A stretch of DNA of 64,000 bases from Bacteroidota bacterium (lineage in GTDB: Bacteria > Bacteroidota > Bacteroidia > JAFLBG01). The position numbers and the translations under genes are program-made. The notes below the pieces were generated by a model. It did not search any database. It was not told the DNA's origin and saw only the letters and a list, made by a program, of their open reading frames with translations. Positions 50,731-61,477 of the stretch are shown here, in pieces; the stretch's first letter is position 1; the number at the start of each line of letters is the position of its first letter. Location: assembly GCA_017303975.1 (NCBI GenBank), contig JAFLBG010000003.1:65157-129156 (forward strand), given 5' to 3'.

Positions 50731-51942
50731 TTATTTTTCTTCCAAATACACAAACATTGTTGCCATTGCAGTATGAGTTACTTGCTGTGGGTTGTTGTAT
50801 TCGCTAATCAATACATATTCGTGAGTTTTGTATAACTGAATTCCAGTTGTATCGGAATATGAATCTAGGTAAGCCAATCCAATCTTGTCTGAAAATGATT
50901 TGTTTTTGCCTTTAAATAAGCTTTTATTTTCTGTTTTATCTATTAACTCCAACGATTCTGAGTACGGATGTGCGTGTATACCAATAAAACGAATCTTGGT
51001 GTCGTATTTTAGGTCTAGCATTAATGTAATATTGCTGGTTAATTTTTCATATCCAGGTGCTATATTCCAGTGTCCAGTGTAGGTTCGGTTGTAGTTGTCT
51101 TTGTATGGATTAAAATTTTCGTCAAACACTCTTCCTGTGCAGCAAGCAGAATATGAAATAGTACTGCTTGTGTCGCCAATTGTAATTGGACTTGTGGGGC
51201 TAAATTGCTTGGGTGGTTTGGCAAATTCCCCTTCCGGACCAGATAATTGTTTGGTAACAAAAATGGCTTGCTGATATACCGGCTGCATTGAAAAATCTAA
51301 CTCACTATCTTTTAAATAATATACTTTTACTCGTTGTTTAGTTGCAAGATGAATATTTGGGTAATTGTGATTTAGTGCTTGTGATGTAACGGTTAAATCT
51401 TGCCATGATGCAATAGGTACGCCATATCCTTTCGGTAATTTAATTTCGGTTTGACCACCGGTTAAAGTGAAAATTCTGCAAAAAGTGCCAATAGTATTGA
51501 TTTGCCAAGGCGCTGTTGTTTTGTCGTATATGTCTAAATTATTGTGACATAAAAATATATCGGGCAATGGTTTGTTGTTCGAGTCTAGAATTTCTACAGA
51601 ATAACCAACCAACCAATAAATTTCTGTTTTTTTTAAATAATTTAAGAAACGATTATTTCCTTTTGGACTGAGATTAATGTAGTTTACGTTAAACGGTCCT
51701 TTCATCGACATGTAAATACTGTCAATTACTAAATTGGGTGATACATATTCAAATGTGTGTAGGGGATATTTTTGTGAGTTGTTGAACGATTCCTTTTTAG
51801 ATACATGTTTTTCATACCACTGAACAAAGCTTGGCTTGTTTTTTTTTGAACGAAAAAAATTAAATCCAAAGAATACTAAAATTGCAACGATGCAAAGTGT
51901 AATAAGGAAATTTAATTTATTTTGTTTTATGTAGTGTAGCAT
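50731..51942 (-). CDS. Membrane-anchored protein, possibly copper type II monooxygenase-like
   Basis: This 403-residue protein has one N-terminal TM helix (about 12-29) and a large external domain. Family membership is not certain, but several features recall the two-domain peptidylglycine/dopamine monooxygenase fold. These are a His in LCHNNLDIYD (His133), His192 in NHNYPNIH, His323 and His325 in GIHAHPYSESLEL, and SEYNNPQQVTHTAMATMF with a Met after an Asn pair (Met393 or Met396). Only some ligands of the classical copper sites are evident. It lies 33 bp downstream of a T9SS PKD protein gene on the same strand, suggesting one operon. Without support it should be treated as unknown. Confidence 0.5.
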   Translation of the reverse strand: MLHYIKQNKLNFLITLCIVAILVFFGFNFFRSKKNKPSFVQWYEKHVSKKESFNNSQKYPLHTFEYVSPNLVIDSIYMSMKGPFNVNYINLSPKGNNRFLNYLKKTEIYWLVGYSVEILDSNNKPLPDIFLCHNNLDIYDKTTAPWQINTIGTFCRIFTLTGGQTEIKLPKGYGVPIASWQDLTVTSQALNHNYPNIHLATKQRVKVYYLKDSELDFSMQPVYQQAIFVTKQLSGPEGEFAKPPKQFSPTSPITIGDTSSTISYSACCTGRVFDENFNPYKDNYNRTYTGHWNIAPGYEKLTSNITLMLDLKYDTKIRFIGIHAHPYSESLELIDKTENKSLFKGKNKSFSDKIGLAYLDSYSDTTGIQLYKTHEYVLISEYNNPQQVTHTAMATMFVYLEEK

Positions 51943-51975: not shown

Positions 51976-54660
51976 TTAGCGTAACAGTGTAACATGACCA
52001 ACGAAAGTGTGTTCTTTTTGCTCAACATCGTCTGTAAAGGTAATTTGATAAATATACACACCTGTTTGGCATTTATTAGTTTTATATTCTCCATTCCAAC
52101 CTTCTTGCGTGTTGTGTGTTTCAAAAATAAGTTGTCCCCAGCGATTAAAAATTCTAAATGTGTAGTCAGACGCCCCAATTACCTTAGGCAAGAACGTTTC
52201 ATTGAGTTGGTCATTGTTGTAGGTAAATGCGTTTGGTACAAAAAATCTAAATTCCGGTAAAACTTCAAACGCTAATGCAAATGTATCTGAGCAGCCAATT
52301 CCATTTATTAGTATTTGCTGAATTGTATAGGTTCCTGGTGTTGTGTAGGAATGACTTATGTTGTTAAAATTACAGGTGCTATCTATCGTTCCATCGCCAA
52401 AATGCAAGTAGCAATTTACACCATTGATGCTTAAATCTGTTACCGTAACTTCCGGGTCAAAAATTGAAGTTGCCGTTTCGCTAATGCTTATTCCTGCTGT
52501 TGGAGATGGATTTACGGTTATACTATTGTTTTTAGGAAATGTAAATGTTTGTGTGCACCCGTTGTTGTCAATTGCTGTTAGTTGAACAGTAAATGAAAAC
52601 AAACCAACGTTGGTATACGAAAACGATGTGGTTGGAGACGAAGATGTGGTGCCATCGTGAAATGTCCAATTGTAGGAGGCTACAGAGCCGGTTGCATTTG
52701 TAGTGTCTGCAAACAAAATGGTATATGGATTACAAACAACCATAGGCGAAAAATTAAATTGTGCTGTAGGCAATGGGAAAACCTCCACAGAGTCGATATA
52801 GTATTTAGTACATCCGTTTTCTGAAATGGTAAGTGTAACTGCATAAATTCCGGCTGCTCCGTAATTTACATTAGTTACATTTTGTTGATTACTTGTGTTT
52901 ATGGAAGCCCCGTTTTCAAAGTCCCAAGTAAATAAAGTGCCCGGACCGCTAAATCCGGAAGCGGTGAACGAAAAATTATTATTTGTAATACATTGTCCGG
53001 AAGGTTTTATAAATGAGGGTTGCAGCAAAGGCTGAATATCATAGGTTGTGTAGGCTGTATCTTTGCACCCAAATCCGGTGGCTGCAATAAGTGTGATTGT
53101 ATAATTTCCGGGTGCGGAAAATGTATAGGTAGGAGAGGATTGCGATGAGGTGTCTTGACTAGTAGTGGGGTCGCCAAAATTCCAAAAAAACGAGTTGGCA
53201 TTTAAACTAGCGTTTGTGTAGGTTACAGATAGCCCACCACAGAACGATTGTTGTGCAGGTACAGATGCTGTAGGCATTGGGTGCACTGTAATTGTTTGAA
53301 CAGAAGTTTTAGTGCACCCATTTTCTGATACACTAAGAGTTACAGTTTTTGTTCCTGGGGTAGAATATGAAATTCCGCTTGGGTTTTGTTGGTTAGAATT
53401 TGGTGGCGCTGCTCCTTGTCCAAAGTTCCAACTGAAATTTGTAATTGGTCCACTAAACGTCCCCCCTGCGGCAAACGAGAAATTACTGGTATTTAGACAC
53501 TGTCCCGTTGGAGCTGTAAAGCTTGGGCTTAACAACGGTTGTATGTTAAAAACGGAGTATGCTGTATCTACGCAAGAATAACCTGGGTTTACAACTAGCA
53601 TAACGGTATAAGTGCCTGCTGCAGGATATGTCCAGGTTGGAGCAACTATATTAGAAGTGTCGTTTGTAAGGGCGGCCTCTCCAAAGTCCCAATGGTAGCT
53701 AAATCCATTGATGCTATTGTTTAGAAAATTTACATTAAACCCGGTGCAAAATGTTTGCTGAGACGGAATAGATGCAACCGTATTATTCGGGCAGTTCATT
53801 ACATTGAATTGAAAATCTCTTTTATGTATGTTTATTAAATTTCCATTTCGGTATTCTTTTACGCAAACGCCAACAACCCACTGTCCAATGGTATTGGGTG
53901 TTCCTGTCATTAATCCGGTTGATGGGTTTATACTCAGTGCAGGGTTAGAGGCCATTGGATAAGAGCCGTTGTATCCCGAAGTTGTATTGAATGGAACTGC
54001 TGTGTAAGGTGGGCCGGAAGGAGGAACCGGCATTGGGTTTAATGTGGTACCTCCATCGTATGGATCGCATAGCTCATATACCAACGAATCTCCATCGGGG
54101 TCGTTGGCAGAATGATCGAAAGTTATGGGCAAGCCTGCACACAAAAAAATGGGCGGGTAATTTATAAATCGGGGACTGTTATTAGTGGTAGCCACACTTT
54201 GGTCGGGAATGTAGGTCCAATACGTAGAGCCTACATTGCCCGGATTTACTAGATTTAAAATGGTGTTATTTCTACAGCAGCGTTGGTAGGCAAGATAGTA
54301 GCCACCTGCAATGGGTGGAAGTTGAATAAAGCCAACATAAACGGCTTCTTCAACACAAATATTTGTAGGTGTCTGGTAGCATGGATTATTAAAATTAGAG
54401 CTCAATAACGTAGAGCCAGGAAATGGAATACTTAACGTTGTAATAAGTACTCCGGAAGCATCGAAAATGCCAACGGAAGCAGGATTGTCAAACGGAGCTT
54501 GCCCATTAATGCAATCTCTGTAAACCTTGAGCGTGATATTGTAATTATTGTTCCCTAAGTAATCATAATAAATTTCTCCTCCTACAATGTGTGTTGACCA
54601 CATGGATAAGCTTAGAAGTGTAAAGGTAAATAGTAGTTTATATTTTAGATTCAATACCAT
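51976..54660 (-). CDS. PKD-repeat surface protein with T9SS type B C-terminal domain
   Basis: This 894-residue protein has a signal peptide, then the N-terminal region THIVGGEIYYDYLGNNNYNITLKVYRDC that is frequent in large Bacteroidota adhesins. At least four PKD domains follow (FSYHWDFGEAALTNDTSN, NSFFWNFGDPTTSQDTSS, NWTFHDGTTSSSPTTSF and LFTWDFENGASIN). The end is a type B sorting domain (PNAFTYNNDQLNETFLPKVIGA to GHVTLLR). It should be exported by T9SS and act in adhesion or motility. It leads an apparent operon with the possible copper-enzyme-like gene downstream. Confidence 0.92.
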   Translation of the reverse strand: MVLNLKYKLLFTFTLLSLSMWSTHIVGGEIYYDYLGNNNYNITLKVYRDCINGQAPFDNPASVGIFDASGVLITTLSIPFPGSTLLSSNFNNPCYQTPTNICVEEAVYVGFIQLPPIAGGYYLAYQRCCRNNTILNLVNPGNVGSTYWTYIPDQSVATTNNSPRFINYPPIFLCAGLPITFDHSANDPDGDSLVYELCDPYDGGTTLNPMPVPPSGPPYTAVPFNTTSGYNGSYPMASNPALSINPSTGLMTGTPNTIGQWVVGVCVKEYRNGNLINIHKRDFQFNVMNCPNNTVASIPSQQTFCTGFNVNFLNNSINGFSYHWDFGEAALTNDTSNIVAPTWTYPAAGTYTVMLVVNPGYSCVDTAYSVFNIQPLLSPSFTAPTGQCLNTSNFSFAAGGTFSGPITNFSWNFGQGAAPPNSNQQNPSGISYSTPGTKTVTLSVSENGCTKTSVQTITVHPMPTASVPAQQSFCGGLSVTYTNASLNANSFFWNFGDPTTSQDTSSQSSPTYTFSAPGNYTITLIAATGFGCKDTAYTTYDIQPLLQPSFIKPSGQCITNNNFSFTASGFSGPGTLFTWDFENGASINTSNQQNVTNVNYGAAGIYAVTLTISENGCTKYYIDSVEVFPLPTAQFNFSPMVVCNPYTILFADTTNATGSVASYNWTFHDGTTSSSPTTSFSYTNVGLFSFTVQLTAIDNNGCTQTFTFPKNNSITVNPSPTAGISISETATSIFDPEVTVTDLSINGVNCYLHFGDGTIDSTCNFNNISHSYTTPGTYTIQQILINGIGCSDTFALAFEVLPEFRFFVPNAFTYNNDQLNETFLPKVIGASDYTFRIFNRWGQLIFETHNTQEGWNGEYKTNKCQTGVYIYQITFTDDVEQKEHTFVGHVTLLR

Positions 54661-56956: not shown

Positions 56957-59900
56957 ATGTGTAAAAAAATAAAAATTTTACTTTTTGTTTTCACTCTGCT
57001 ATGCGTAAGTGTGGGCTTTTCAGCATCCGGTTTTATCGAGAATAAAGGGCAGGTGTTAGATTTTAATGGAAATTCAAGGAGTGATATAAAGTATGTAAAG
57101 ACAACTCCTGATTTAAATTTATATTTCTTTGATACTAAAATTTCGTATGTACTTCATAATATAAATTCCGTAAACAAAGTTTATTTCGAAGCGTTAGAAA
57201 CAAAAACAAAAGAACTTTTTGAAGGCACGATAACTAAAGCTCAGTTTGACGAAGTTGCCCTTTCTAACCCCCGTATTTCATATCATCGATTGGATTTGGA
57301 GTTTGTTGGCGGAAATTACAATCCTCTGATAAGTGCCTCTAATCAATTAAGTGGATACAACAATTATTATTATTCAGGGATAAAAGCTGAGAATGTAAAG
57401 TCGTACAATAAATTAGGTTATAGTGGTGTTTACGAGGGAATTGATTTTAGCTTTTACGAAACAGAATCAAAAATAGTAAAGTATGATATTGTTGTTCATC
57501 CTACCGGAGATGTGAATGATATAAAATTAAAGTATACGGGAGCAGATAAGGTTGAATTGGAGAATAATGTACTTTCAATACATACTGGATTGCAAGTAAT
57601 AAAGGAAAATCTGCCTAAAATTTACCAGACAATTAATGGGAGAATAGAGGAGGTAAAATCGGAGTATAAGATTATTGAGCAAAATGAAAACTATACTGTT
57701 ATTGGGTTTCAAGCCCATCGATATAATAAGCAATACGATTTAGTTATCGACCCTGCTGTTTGGACTACCTATATGGGGGGCACGAACGGGGAAATTCCAT
57801 ATTCTGTTGTTGCCGATAATCAAGATAATTCTATTTTTTGTGGAACAACTGCTTCACTAAATTTTCCTGTAACTGTTGGAGCCTTTCAAACAAATCACGC
57901 AGGAGGTATTAACAATAATATGGCCGGGCTTTGGCCTATAGGGCAATGCGATGCGTATTTAATTAAATTTGATTTTAATGGGAATAGGCTTTGGTCGACC
58001 TATTTTGGCAGTACTGCTGGTAATGATGATTTTAGAGCAGTTTGTGTTGATCCAAATGGAAATATTGTTGCTGGTGGATTATCTACAAATGGCGTGATTC
58101 CTGGCTTGGGTTCTGGCTTGCAAAATACCTATAGCGGAGGAAATACAGATGGATATTTGGCAAAATTTAATTCAGCCGGAAATTTAGTTACCTCTACATA
58201 CTTTGGAGGTAACGGACAGGATTGGTTGTTAGATGTTGCCAGAGATAATGCTGGAAATTTTGTGGCTGTAGGTTATACTACTTCTTCAAATTTGCCTATG
58301 GTTGGAAATACTTACCAAGCAAGCAATGGGGGATTTATAGATATTTACATTGCAAAATTTAACAATAACTTAAATGCGTTGCAGTTCTCTACTTATTATG
58401 GAGGAACAGGATCAGAGTATGCATTCGGAGTTGATGTAGACTCGAATAATGATATTTGCATTGTAGGTTCAAGCAATGGATTGGGTAGCGGGTTTCCAAC
58501 TACTGCCGGTGCATTTCAAACTACTTACGGAGGGCAAAACAATTTTTTAACAGCTGGAGGAGATGGAGTAATACTAAAATTTTCTTCTGCCGGAAACCGT
58601 TTGTGGGCTACCTATTATGGAAATCCAGGTACTGATTATACGACAGCTGTAGCAGTTGATCAAAATGATGATATTGTAATTTGTGGTATTACAAATAAAA
58701 GCGCACCTGCTAATAATACTTATTTTAGCACTCCGGGTGCTTTCCAACTATCGCATGCCGGAGGCGGTACTGCATCTTATTCTTTGGATAGTTATGTGGC
58801 AAAATTTTCTCCTTCAGGCACTAGAATTTGGGGTACCTATTTAGGAGGATCAGTTGGTGGAGCAAGTTCATCAAACAAGCCGGATGATTATGCAATGGGA
58901 ATTGCAATTACAAGTGAGAATGATATTGTAGTAACCGGAGATTCTTATACAACAGATTTTCCAAATACAACTTGTTCATACCAAGGCAATGTTGTCAATC
59001 AATACGAGCAAATTTTCATTACCACATTCAATCCTTCCGGGAAGTTAATTTGTTCCAGCTTGCTAGTAAATTCAGCTAGTGCAAGTGGTCATAATGATAT
59101 GTCTATTTTTTCAGGATGGGGCACATCGGGTGGATATATTGATGCACGTAAAGGATTTGGATATCTAACAGCTCATAATTTAGCAGGAAATGCACCTGTT
59201 ACTACTGGTGCATTTCAAACAACAAAAATGGGGAGCAGAGAACCAATAGCCTCCAGAATATGTTTATACACTTGTGGCAATAGCACTCTTACCGCAAGCT
59301 ACACAAGTACAACACCAACAATTTGTATCAATCAAAGTGTAACATACACCGGCATCCCTAATACATGCGATACCACTAGAACCAAGTATCTATGGACATT
59401 TCCGGGAGGAACCCCAGCAACTTCTACAAATAAAACACCTACTGTTAATTATAATGCAGCCGGACTTTTCAATTTCAAGTTGAGAATTACTACTCCGTGT
59501 GATACAGATTCTGTGGTGGTAGCAAATTATGTAACTGTTTCTAATCCGATACTAACTAGTACTATTACTAATGCTAGTTGCTTTGGATTAGCAGATGGGC
59601 AAGCTACTGCAAGCTTAAGTTCCGGTATAGCGCCATATACGTATTCATGGAGCAATGCACAAACAAACTCAGCTGCGACATTTTTGGGTATTGGTACCTA
59701 TAGTGTGGTAGTTTCGGATGCAATTGGTTGCTCCGCAACCGGACAGGTTACCATTACAGAGCCACCTCAATTACAGTTTTCGTTACAGCTCCAACAAGGT
59801 GTTTTGTGTAACGGAATACCTACCGGACAAATTACCTCTCAAACATCAGGTGGTGTGGGTGCTTATACATATGTGTGGTCTGTTGTCAACAATACAGGAG

Positions 59901-61477
59901 CTGCGGCTTCAAATTTAAACGCAGGCATATATGGTGCTACGGTTCAAGATGGGAATGGATGTATTGCAAGTGATACTATACATTTAAATCAACCCGGCTC
60001 TTTGATAGGATTTATTTCCACTTTAACCAATGTGCTTTGCAATGGAGATGCCACGGGGTCTGCTACTGCTGCTGCTATTGGAGGTGTTGGTGCATACACG
60101 TATTCGTGGAGTAGTGGACAAAATACTGCTGTTGTTAATTCATTTACAGCTAATACGTATACGGTAACAATTACAGATGCCAATGGATGCACTGCACAAG
60201 CGTATGCAAATATTACCGAACCACCTTTGCTTCAAGTGTCATCAGTAGTTCAATCTACTGTTGATTGTTTTGGAAATAATAATGGCTCTGCAATAGCGAA
60301 TCCTAATGGCGGGACAGGAAGTTATACGTATTCTTGGAGCAATGGACAGCAAACACATGTAGCCAATGGGTTGCCCGCAGGTACCTATCAAGTTTTAGTT
60401 ACAGATGCAAATGGTTGTACAGAAAATGCATCTATGCAAATTACAGAACCAACAGCTCTAACAGCTCAAATAACAGGGCCCACAGATATTTGTATGGGGG
60501 CTGCAAATGCAAGCATATTGGCTACTCCGGCAGGAGGCACGCCTAGTTATTCATTTAGTTGGAGCAATAATCAACAAACAGCGGGACTCAATAACATTGG
60601 AGCTGGAGTATATAATTTAGTTGTTACAGACGCCAATGGATGTACTTTGGCAACAAGCCATACTATACAATTAAATCCAGCATTGCAGCCACAACCAACC
60701 TTTACAGTTGATAAACTATCGGGGTGCGGGCCATTATGTGTAAATTTTATAAATACAACTACTAATACACAAAGTTTGATGTGGGAATTTGGTAGTAACG
60801 GTATAACGTCCACTAACTCTTCCGAACAATATTGCTTTACAAGTCCAGGTAGTTTTAATATTGCATTAACTGTTGTAGATAATAATGGATGCAGTGCTAC
60901 TCTTACACAAACAAATTTTATTACTGTACATCCCAATCCAGTGGCGCAGTTTAACTCTAGTGTAAGTGAGACCAGTATTTTGGAGTCGCAGGTTCAATTT
61001 GTTAGTACATCAATTTTGTCTAACAGTTTAAATTGGAGTTTAGGAGATAGTACTTTTGTAAGTACCTTATTCCCGGATAATTCAATAAGCCACACCTACA
61101 AAGACACAGGTGTGTATGCGGTTAAACTAGTAGTAGTAACAGAATTTGGGTGTAAGGATAGTACAATCGAATATATTTATATAAAAGATGATTACACACA
61201 ATACATTCCCAATAGTTTTACTCCGAATGGCGATGGCATTAATGATGTATTTATGCCATCAGGTATTGGGGTTGAGGCTAAGGATTATTTATTTGAAATA
61301 TACAATCGATGGGGCGAAAAAATTTGGAGCACTAAAGAAATTTATAAAGGGTGGGATGGCAGAGCTAATGATGGAAAACTGATAGCCCAACAAGATGTGT
61401 TTATATACGTATTACACATCAACGATATCTACGAAAGAAAACATCGCTTTGTAGGAAGCGTTACTATTATTAAATAG
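56957..61477 (+). CDS. Giant SBBP/SprB-repeat adhesin with T9SS type B C-terminal domain
   Basis: This 1506-residue secreted protein has a signal peptide (to about residue 24). An N-terminal domain of about 240 residues beginning GFIENKGQVLD precedes an SBBP propeller-like region (about 270-760, with DVDSNNDICIVGSS and STYFGG patterns). After a PKD unit (near 800), SprB repeats of about 80 residues fill 860-1240 (CFGLADGQATASLSSG, CNGDATGSATAAAIGG, CFGNNNGSAIANPNGG), each with YTYSWSNGQ-like cores. A PKD domain and a type B sorting domain (PNSFTPNGDGINDVFMPSG to SVTIIK) close the protein. SprB-type repeats occur in gliding adhesins. Confidence 0.93.
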   Translation: MCKKIKILLFVFTLLCVSVGFSASGFIENKGQVLDFNGNSRSDIKYVKTTPDLNLYFFDTKISYVLHNINSVNKVYFEALETKTKELFEGTITKAQFDEVALSNPRISYHRLDLEFVGGNYNPLISASNQLSGYNNYYYSGIKAENVKSYNKLGYSGVYEGIDFSFYETESKIVKYDIVVHPTGDVNDIKLKYTGADKVELENNVLSIHTGLQVIKENLPKIYQTINGRIEEVKSEYKIIEQNENYTVIGFQAHRYNKQYDLVIDPAVWTTYMGGTNGEIPYSVVADNQDNSIFCGTTASLNFPVTVGAFQTNHAGGINNNMAGLWPIGQCDAYLIKFDFNGNRLWSTYFGSTAGNDDFRAVCVDPNGNIVAGGLSTNGVIPGLGSGLQNTYSGGNTDGYLAKFNSAGNLVTSTYFGGNGQDWLLDVARDNAGNFVAVGYTTSSNLPMVGNTYQASNGGFIDIYIAKFNNNLNALQFSTYYGGTGSEYAFGVDVDSNNDICIVGSSNGLGSGFPTTAGAFQTTYGGQNNFLTAGGDGVILKFSSAGNRLWATYYGNPGTDYTTAVAVDQNDDIVICGITNKSAPANNTYFSTPGAFQLSHAGGGTASYSLDSYVAKFSPSGTRIWGTYLGGSVGGASSSNKPDDYAMGIAITSENDIVVTGDSYTTDFPNTTCSYQGNVVNQYEQIFITTFNPSGKLICSSLLVNSASASGHNDMSIFSGWGTSGGYIDARKGFGYLTAHNLAGNAPVTTGAFQTTKMGSREPIASRICLYTCGNSTLTASYTSTTPTICINQSVTYTGIPNTCDTTRTKYLWTFPGGTPATSTNKTPTVNYNAAGLFNFKLRITTPCDTDSVVVANYVTVSNPILTSTITNASCFGLADGQATASLSSGIAPYTYSWSNAQTNSAATFLGIGTYSVVVSDAIGCSATGQVTITEPPQLQFSLQLQQGVLCNGIPTGQITSQTSGGVGAYTYVWSVVNNTGAAASNLNAGIYGATVQDGNGCIASDTIHLNQPGSLIGFISTLTNVLCNGDATGSATAAAIGGVGAYTYSWSSGQNTAVVNSFTANTYTVTITDANGCTAQAYANITEPPLLQVSSVVQSTVDCFGNNNGSAIANPNGGTGSYTYSWSNGQQTHVANGLPAGTYQVLVTDANGCTENASMQITEPTALTAQITGPTDICMGAANASILATPAGGTPSYSFSWSNNQQTAGLNNIGAGVYNLVVTDANGCTLATSHTIQLNPALQPQPTFTVDKLSGCGPLCVNFINTTTNTQSLMWEFGSNGITSTNSSEQYCFTSPGSFNIALTVVDNNGCSATLTQTNFITVHPNPVAQFNSSVSETSILESQVQFVSTSILSNSLNWSLGDSTFVSTLFPDNSISHTYKDTGVYAVKLVVVTEFGCKDSTIEYIYIKDDYTQYIPNSFTPNGDGINDVFMPSGIGVEAKDYLFEIYNRWGEKIWSTKEIYKGWDGRANDGKLIAQQDVFIYVLHINDIYERKHRFVGSVTIIK

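Follow-up and report, generated by a model that had tools for sequence, protein, structure and literature searches.

A membrane-anchored bacterial protein family with a predicted PHM/DBH-like fold that keeps the CuM ligands and not the CuH triad

Background

The PHM/DBH class comprises the animal copper enzymes responsible for peptide hormone amidation and for the synthesis of noradrenaline. The N-domain of PHM is built of eight strands. In a structural report on PHM (PMC6123673), the CuH ligands are H107, H108 and H172, the CuM ligands are H242, H244 and M314, and mutation of any of the three CuH histidines is stated to give an inactive enzyme. The same report describes PDB entry 6ALA as the citrate-bound H108A mutant, whose domains have closed by some 18 degrees; its single copper is ligated by H107 along with H242 and H244 and is no longer bound by Met314 (PMC6123673). 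For DBH, the structure paper (PMC4846438) supplies the ligand numbers used here and identifies chain A of 4ZEL as the closed chain. Whether these enzymes work with two distant coppers in an open arrangement or with closed domains is discussed there as an open matter, to which the H108A structure of PHM adds a closed, single-copper form (PMC4846438, PMC6123673).

The stretch of DNA analysed here, referred to as the window, comprises 64,000 nucleotides of a Bacteroidota genome (GCA_017303975.1, contig JAFLBG010000003.1). An initial annotation of the window, made from its letters and open reading frames, had proposed that the gene at 50731-51942 encodes an incomplete match to PHM-type type II copper monooxygenases and that it is paired with a type IX secretion (T9SS) adhesin. 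We followed up that proposal by sequence searches, structure prediction, profile-profile comparison and a survey of neighbouring genes.

Methods

Single-sequence searches with the window protein were made against Pfam, NCBIfam, the PDB and sampled genomes, and family profiles were searched against genomes and the PDB. Genome contigs were also scanned with two sequence patterns, one of which was [FY][ML]CHNN[LF][ND]; the HxH motif and the Met were in neither pattern. Left out of the 51-member family set were L074 and L030 (the same gene, with ambiguous bases), the short or weak L004 and L096, as well as repeat retrievals of whole or partial genes that were already in the set.

AlphaFold2 was used to model the window protein, metal-free and with 29 sequences, and models were compared with PDB structures using Foldseek and VIA-align. 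The canonical profile used in hhalign comparisons combined rat PHM with 13 bacterial proteins retrieved by PF03712. Alignment register was read from 20 hhalign runs, which combined two family alignments, two column rules and five settings. The Pfam scan of neighbouring genes covered 40 proteins from 21 loci (22 loci with the window), while the neighbours of L051, L054, L058, L060, L061, L063, L069 and L071 were clustered only and lay outside the Pfam scan.

Results

Gene and protein

The gene is an ORF of 403 codons with an ATG start, and its features are as follows.

50731 to 51942, minus strand: membrane-anchored protein of 403 residues with a predicted PHM/DBH-like double jelly-roll (ORF, AlphaFold2 model, fold and profile matches)
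51853 to 51939, minus strand: N-terminal hydrophobic helix, residues 2-30, taken as the membrane anchor of an exported protein (DSSP of the model)
51238 to 51777, minus strand: N-terminal jelly-roll, about residues 56-235 with an approximate boundary, putative counterpart of the PHM CuH domain (model, structural alignment)
51544 to 51549, minus strand: Cys132-His133 on strand 131-138, conserved in 50 of 51 members, a candidate counterpart of PHM His107-His108 by strand order only
51367 to 51369, minus strand: His192, between Q188 and N193, a His in only 28 of 51 members
50734 to 51087, minus strand: C-terminal jelly-roll, about residues 286-403, putative counterpart of the PHM CuM domain (model, structural and profile alignments)
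51067 to 51072, minus strand: His291-Trp292, invariant (51/51), aligned with PHM 211-212 in part of the profile runs, not a metal ligand in PHM
50968 to 50976, minus strand: His323-x-His325, invariant (51/51), putative counterpart of the CuM ligands H242 and H244
50764 to 50766, minus strand: Met393, invariant (51/51), putative counterpart of the CuM ligand M314 (DBH M487) by profile alignment and by the ends of the structural alignments

The residues singled out by the initial annotation (His133, His192, His323-x-His325 and the late Met393) are all located where it placed them. Met393 lies within ...YNNPQQVTHTAM... and comes after ...YNNPQQVTHTA. An extracytoplasmic location is supported by a hydrophobic N-terminal stretch in 46 of 51 family members and a lipobox-like motif in 26 of 51. 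Two cysteines are highly conserved, C132 (51547-51549) in 50 and C267 (51142-51144) in 48 of 51 members, the latter in a low-confidence insert between the two domains of the window protein. Three members keep C132 without C267, so that a strict C132-C267 disulfide pair is not supported.

Distribution of the family

Single-sequence searches of Pfam, NCBIfam and the PDB with the window protein gave no usable match, and a 7-row family profile returned only chance matches from the PDB. Among genomes, the single sequence matched 4 of 296 from the phylum (the protein's own genome counted, and one match being a weak fragment) and 4 of 60 near relatives (own genome counted), while the 7-row profile matched 17 of 395 Bacteroidia genomes, own genome again included. 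Pattern scanning of genome contigs yielded 29 loci, including some in two Myxococcales MAGs and in one Omnitrophota MAG. A 29-row profile then matched 11 of 188 genomes in the phylum of one Myxococcales MAG (that MAG counted, and one match short and weak) and 1 of 145 in the phylum of the Omnitrophota MAG, this being the MAG itself. The 51 family members collected come from Bacteroidota, the phylum of Myxococcales and the one Omnitrophota MAG, and their pairwise identity has a median of 30% and a minimum of 19%. The Omnitrophota MAG holds four copies, two of them in direct tandem (L065, 6132-7319 and 7319-8455); with none in the 144 further genomes sampled from its phylum, these copies were either acquired and expanded or are a matter of binning.

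The family has no name in Pfam or NCBIfam. Neither PF01082 nor PF03712 produced a match at E up to 10 among the family members scanned. The initial annotation had suggested a search with Cu2_monooxygenase profiles; it did not find the protein, although PF03712 finds a canonical member of the same genome (L043), which serves as a positive control. PF01082 matched nothing anywhere in that genome, controls included, and, as a model without a positive control, is uninformative there. No paper describing the family was found by titles and abstract openings in a literature search that left subscription journals mostly outside its coverage.

Predicted fold

The AlphaFold2 model of the window protein (pLDDT 87.2, pTM 0.84, with residues 250-270 unreliable) consists of the N-terminal helix followed by two beta domains. 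In Foldseek comparisons with the PDB, ranks 1-30 were occupied by two DBH chains and 28 PHM chains, all with probability 1.00 and E from 1.8e-7 to 3.6e-5, and ranks 31-50 by other proteins. The Foldseek superpositions on DBH and PHM scored low (query-normalised TM 0.34-0.46, target-normalised up to 0.55, rmsd 7-11). VIA-align gave Z 17.8 for 6ala_A (rmsd 3.2, 235 residues aligned) and 17.2 for 4zel_A (rmsd 3.3), Z 13.3-16.0 with rmsd 3.9-5.8 for the other 24 PHM entries, and Z 7.9-8.8 for PNGase-type folds and a putative hydrolase; the rest of the best 50 matches reached at most 7.4. A second AlphaFold2 model, of the Myxococcales member L064 (pLDDT 82.7, pTM 0.79), behaved similarly, with Z 18.1 and rmsd 3.4 for 6ala_C, Z 16.9 and rmsd 3.4 for 4zel_A, and Z 13.9-16.5 with rmsd 4.0-5.7 for other PHM entries. 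In a viral structure library, TM-scores went only up to 0.29 among the best 50 matches.

In both models the predicted tandem jelly-rolls superpose on PHM and DBH over both domains, which is the fold of the PHM/DBH superfamily. The paired jelly-roll that had been proposed is therefore the one predicted, for the window protein and for L064, and no other fold took its place. The structural alignments of the window model end at residue 403 opposite 324 of PHM and 497 of DBH, and those of L064 at 378 opposite 327 (PHM) and 377 opposite 499 (DBH). If the last strand is gapless, the models would put the family Met (M393; M365 in L064) opposite PHM M314 and DBH M487.

The two best VIA-align matches for both models, with one chain shown per entry, are the known closed conformers 6ALA and 4ZEL chain A. 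They lead the remaining PHM entries by 0.4 to 4.5 Z units and by 0.6 to 2.6 Å, the smallest lead being a tie (L064 model, 4zel_A at 16.9 against 5wja_D at 16.5). In the Foldseek ranking, chain B of DBH, which is open, comes just above the closed chain A. The VIA-align fits suggest a predicted arrangement in which a single copper site would span the domain interface and might include His133.

Profile comparison and alignment register

A profile of six canonical bacterial members searched against the PDB did not reach PHM, so the bridge from the family to PHM needed profile-profile comparison. In hhalign, the 51-row family profile matched the 14 canonical PHM cores with a probability of 81.8%, E 1.1e-5 and a score of 47.6, whereas 60 column-shuffled profiles, a lenient control, scored 15.3 on average and 23.9 at most (0/60 as high) and the reversed profile scored 17.1. 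When the first sequence defined the match columns, the probability was 64.6% and E 6.3e-5. Smaller profiles were weak (29 against 6 rows, probability 4%; 36 against 14 rows, 3-6%), and significance was reached only at 51 rows, once more distant members had been added. Remote homology to the PHM cores is thus statistically supported.

H323, H325 and M393 stood opposite H242, H244 and M314 in all 18 of the runs that covered them, and also in the 29-row against 6-row comparison. The CuM ligands of the PHM/DBH dicopper monooxygenases, HxH and Met, are accordingly present in the family. His291-Trp292 was opposite PHM 211-212 in 11 of 20 profile alignments. The position opposite PHM H172 was taken by Q188 (four Viterbi runs and the 29-row against 6-row comparison) or by N193 (the realigned runs that covered it), and H192 itself was never opposite H172 in any computed alignment. 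PHM H107/H108 were reached in only 5 of the 20 runs, where they were paired with residues 105/106 or 109/110, and C132-H133 were paired with them in no profile alignment of the 20 runs. These pairings make the relation of the C-domain firm and leave the register of the N-domain unsettled.

By strand order, another assignment is available for the N-domain, whose strands in the model are 62-73, 84-89, 108-120, 131-138, 156-161, 166-178, 183-189 and 199-211. Set beside the eight strands of PHM, this order would make Cys132-His133 the counterpart of the His-His strand.

Conserved residues

Thirteen residues are invariant in 51/51 members: M80, G82, W110, G163, P170, P176, N191, H291, W292, H323, H325, Y376 and M393. 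C132 and H133 are each conserved in 50 of 51, and because one scan pattern contained CHNN, C132, H133, N134 and N135 are partly conserved by construction in the 28 members that came through that scan. The fair measure of C132 and H133 is therefore the set of 23 members that came by other routes, in which C132 and H133 are each kept in 22, HxH plus Met in all 23 and H192 in 7. In L025 (1351-2544, plus strand), Gly-Arg replaces Cys132-His133 and the HxH, the Met and His291 are retained, which makes this gene a natural test of the role of the N-domain His.

No conserved His-His pair is found in the 51 members, which have Cys132-His133 instead (50/51). Near the position of H172 there is no invariant His: a His occupies position 188 in none of the members, position 193 in 3 of 51 and position 192 in 28 of 51, the other 23 having at position 192 Leu (15 members), Val, Asn, Gln, Asp, Ser or Pro. 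On a maximum-likelihood tree the presence or absence of H192 requires 6 changes, 5 of them forced by well-supported branches, whereas H323, H325 and M393 never vary. H192, counted among the ligands in the initial proposal, is thus dispensable in the family (28/51 overall). Under any register of the N-domain, the CuH triad, an adjacent His-His and a third His, is not kept as a family feature, and with neither the pair nor an invariant third His, the dicopper definition fails as a family property. A CxxCH or CxxxxCH haem motif was found in 0/51 members.

Neighbourhood

The gene next to that of the window protein encodes an exported T9SS cargo.

51976 to 54660, minus strand: PKD-repeat protein with a type IX (CHU_C / type B) sorting domain, upstream gene, with 33 bases between it and the start of the 50731-51942 gene

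The PKD/CHU_C gene lies upstream on the same strand, so co-transcription is possible. A second large T9SS cargo is encoded close by at 56957-61477 (plus strand), a protein of 1506 residues with DUF7948, a beta-propeller (SBBP), SprB and PKD repeats, and a type IX sorting domain.

Adhesin pairing of the kind seen in the window is not conserved across the family. Above-cutoff T9SS sorting domains were found next door in 5 of the 22 scanned loci (the window, L052, L070, L072 and L074, with L062 below cutoff), and the cargo kinds across the five loci were CHU_C/PKD, SprB, PhoD, sortilin-PKD and a plain tail. A T9SS pairing as a system was rejected, since the neighbourhood of the 51976-54660 type is not conserved in relatives. 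Pfam families among the scanned neighbours included helicases, a photolyase, an IPP transferase, a bestrophin, fatty-acid modifying enzymes, a glycosyltransferase and others, and clustering of neighbours found no recurrent neighbour gene beyond local synteny. MORN_2-repeat proteins directly adjoin the family gene in three Bacteroidota loci (L052, L059 and L067), too few for a link.

Discussion

We consider it probable that the window protein belongs to an exported, membrane-anchored family of the PHM/DBH superfamily, unnamed in Pfam and NCBIfam, in which the CuM site is kept and the CuH triad is not kept as a family feature. The initial reading as a PHM-type type II copper monooxygenase thus stands as regards superfamily, fold and the register of HxH and Met, and does not stand as a full two-site PHM. 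In the scheme that we favour, the site of His323, His325 and Met393 would bind copper, and the two domains, closed as in the models, would let His133 approach the CuM ligands. The protein could oxidise an extracytoplasmic substrate in an O2-dependent reaction, or act on it by some other copper chemistry, and would draw its electrons from outside instead of from CuH or a fused cytochrome c. The most likely role would be oxidation of an external substrate. Each of H107, H108 and H172 is needed in PHM, so that a monooxygenase lacking CuH would have to receive its electrons in some other way.

Within this family assignment, a more specific form would be a natural single-copper, closed PHM/DBH protein, in which His133 would join His323 and His325 across the interface, with Met393 and perhaps His291 nearby, much as in the H108A mutant of PHM (6ALA), and which would do without an electron-reservoir copper. 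Such a single interface site is favoured by the near-constant presence of the N-domain His together with an intact CuM. The role of His133 is read from strand order, which lowers the odds, and we put this form forward tentatively.

Somewhat less likely is a copper-binding, non-catalytic exported protein on a PHM scaffold, such as a metallochaperone, a copper sensor or a scavenger. It would fit a family without a conserved CuH triad or CxxCH and without a recurrent neighbour to supply substrate or electrons, but the full invariance of W292, N191, Y376, M80, W110, P170 and P176 seems to go beyond the needs of a simple chaperone, and no copper-transport family was matched among the 40 neighbours scanned.

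It is unlikely that the window protein is a functional dicopper monooxygenase whose CuH site has been modified, with a second copper held by Cys132, His133 and His192 as it is by H107, H108 and H172 in PHM. H192 is present in this protein and 27 other members, it adjoins N193, which lies opposite H172 in the realigned profile alignments, and C132 is almost always conserved; yet H192 is replaced in 23 members, with six changes on the tree, while the CuM residues are invariant, and the alignments place Q188 or N193, not H192, opposite H172.

An enzyme that modifies peptides or surfaces and is dedicated to the adjacent T9SS PKD adhesin is very improbable: the shared strand, the 33-base gap and the exported PKD-repeat cargo would suit it, but cargo adjoins few of the scanned loci and is of a different kind in each, and none was found among the neighbours scanned for L064, L065 and L066, the relatives from Myxococcales and Omnitrophota. 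We give hardly any credence to a double jelly-roll of PNGase F or carbohydrate-binding type with histidines that are not a metal site, which shows up at a VIA Z of about 8 and has its double jelly-roll and clan CL0612 in common with PHM (PMC8812541), against Z of 17-18 for PHM/DBH and an invariant HxH and Met in register with CuM.

With the ligands of the catalytic copper apparently kept and those of the second copper not, the family protein may be a natural one-copper version of the PHM/DBH enzyme class. A bacterial family that has the catalytic site only, and whose models prefer the closed form, would be a natural experiment on the need for CuH. It would also show that the PHM/DBH superfamily has a bacterial branch missed by the Pfam and NCBIfam models searched.

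Comparison with known systems

The family resembles PHM (1PHM, 1OPM, 6ALA) in its two predicted jelly-roll domains, in the CuM HxH and Met in register, with 68 residues from the second His of HxH to the Met in the window protein and 70 in PHM, and in its extracytoplasmic location. It differs from PHM in sequence (8% identity in the structural alignment), in about 50 residues inserted between the domains of the window protein, in the CuH triad, which is not kept, in the invariant His291-Trp292, which is absent from PHM, and in the closed rather than open arrangement of the models. DBH (4ZEL) has the same core fold, with Z 17.2 and 13% identity for the closed chain A, whereas the family is without a DOMON or dimerisation domain and does not keep the DBH CuH ligands H262, H263 and H333. 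PNGase F, a hydrolase that is not known to have a copper site and is grouped with PHM in Pfam clan CL0612, shares the double jelly-roll, with a VIA Z of only about 8.

The canonical bacterial proteins found with PF03712 (Cu2_monoox_C), which were matched in 20 of the 198 genomes sampled from the phylum (18 of them above the cut-off), belong by profile comparison to the same superfamily. They carry the series HH...H...HxH...DEM together with an N-terminal haem-c motif, which was present in 14/14 of those inspected as CxxCH (11) or CxxxxCH (3; L032, L035 and L042), whereas the His-His pair and the haem motif are both missing from the new family. One canonical protein is encoded in the genome of the window itself (L043, 1363-2724, minus strand), with an N-terminal CxxCH and the motifs VHH, IHY, HMH and DEM, and it matches PF03712 above cutoff; the organism thus carries both kinds.
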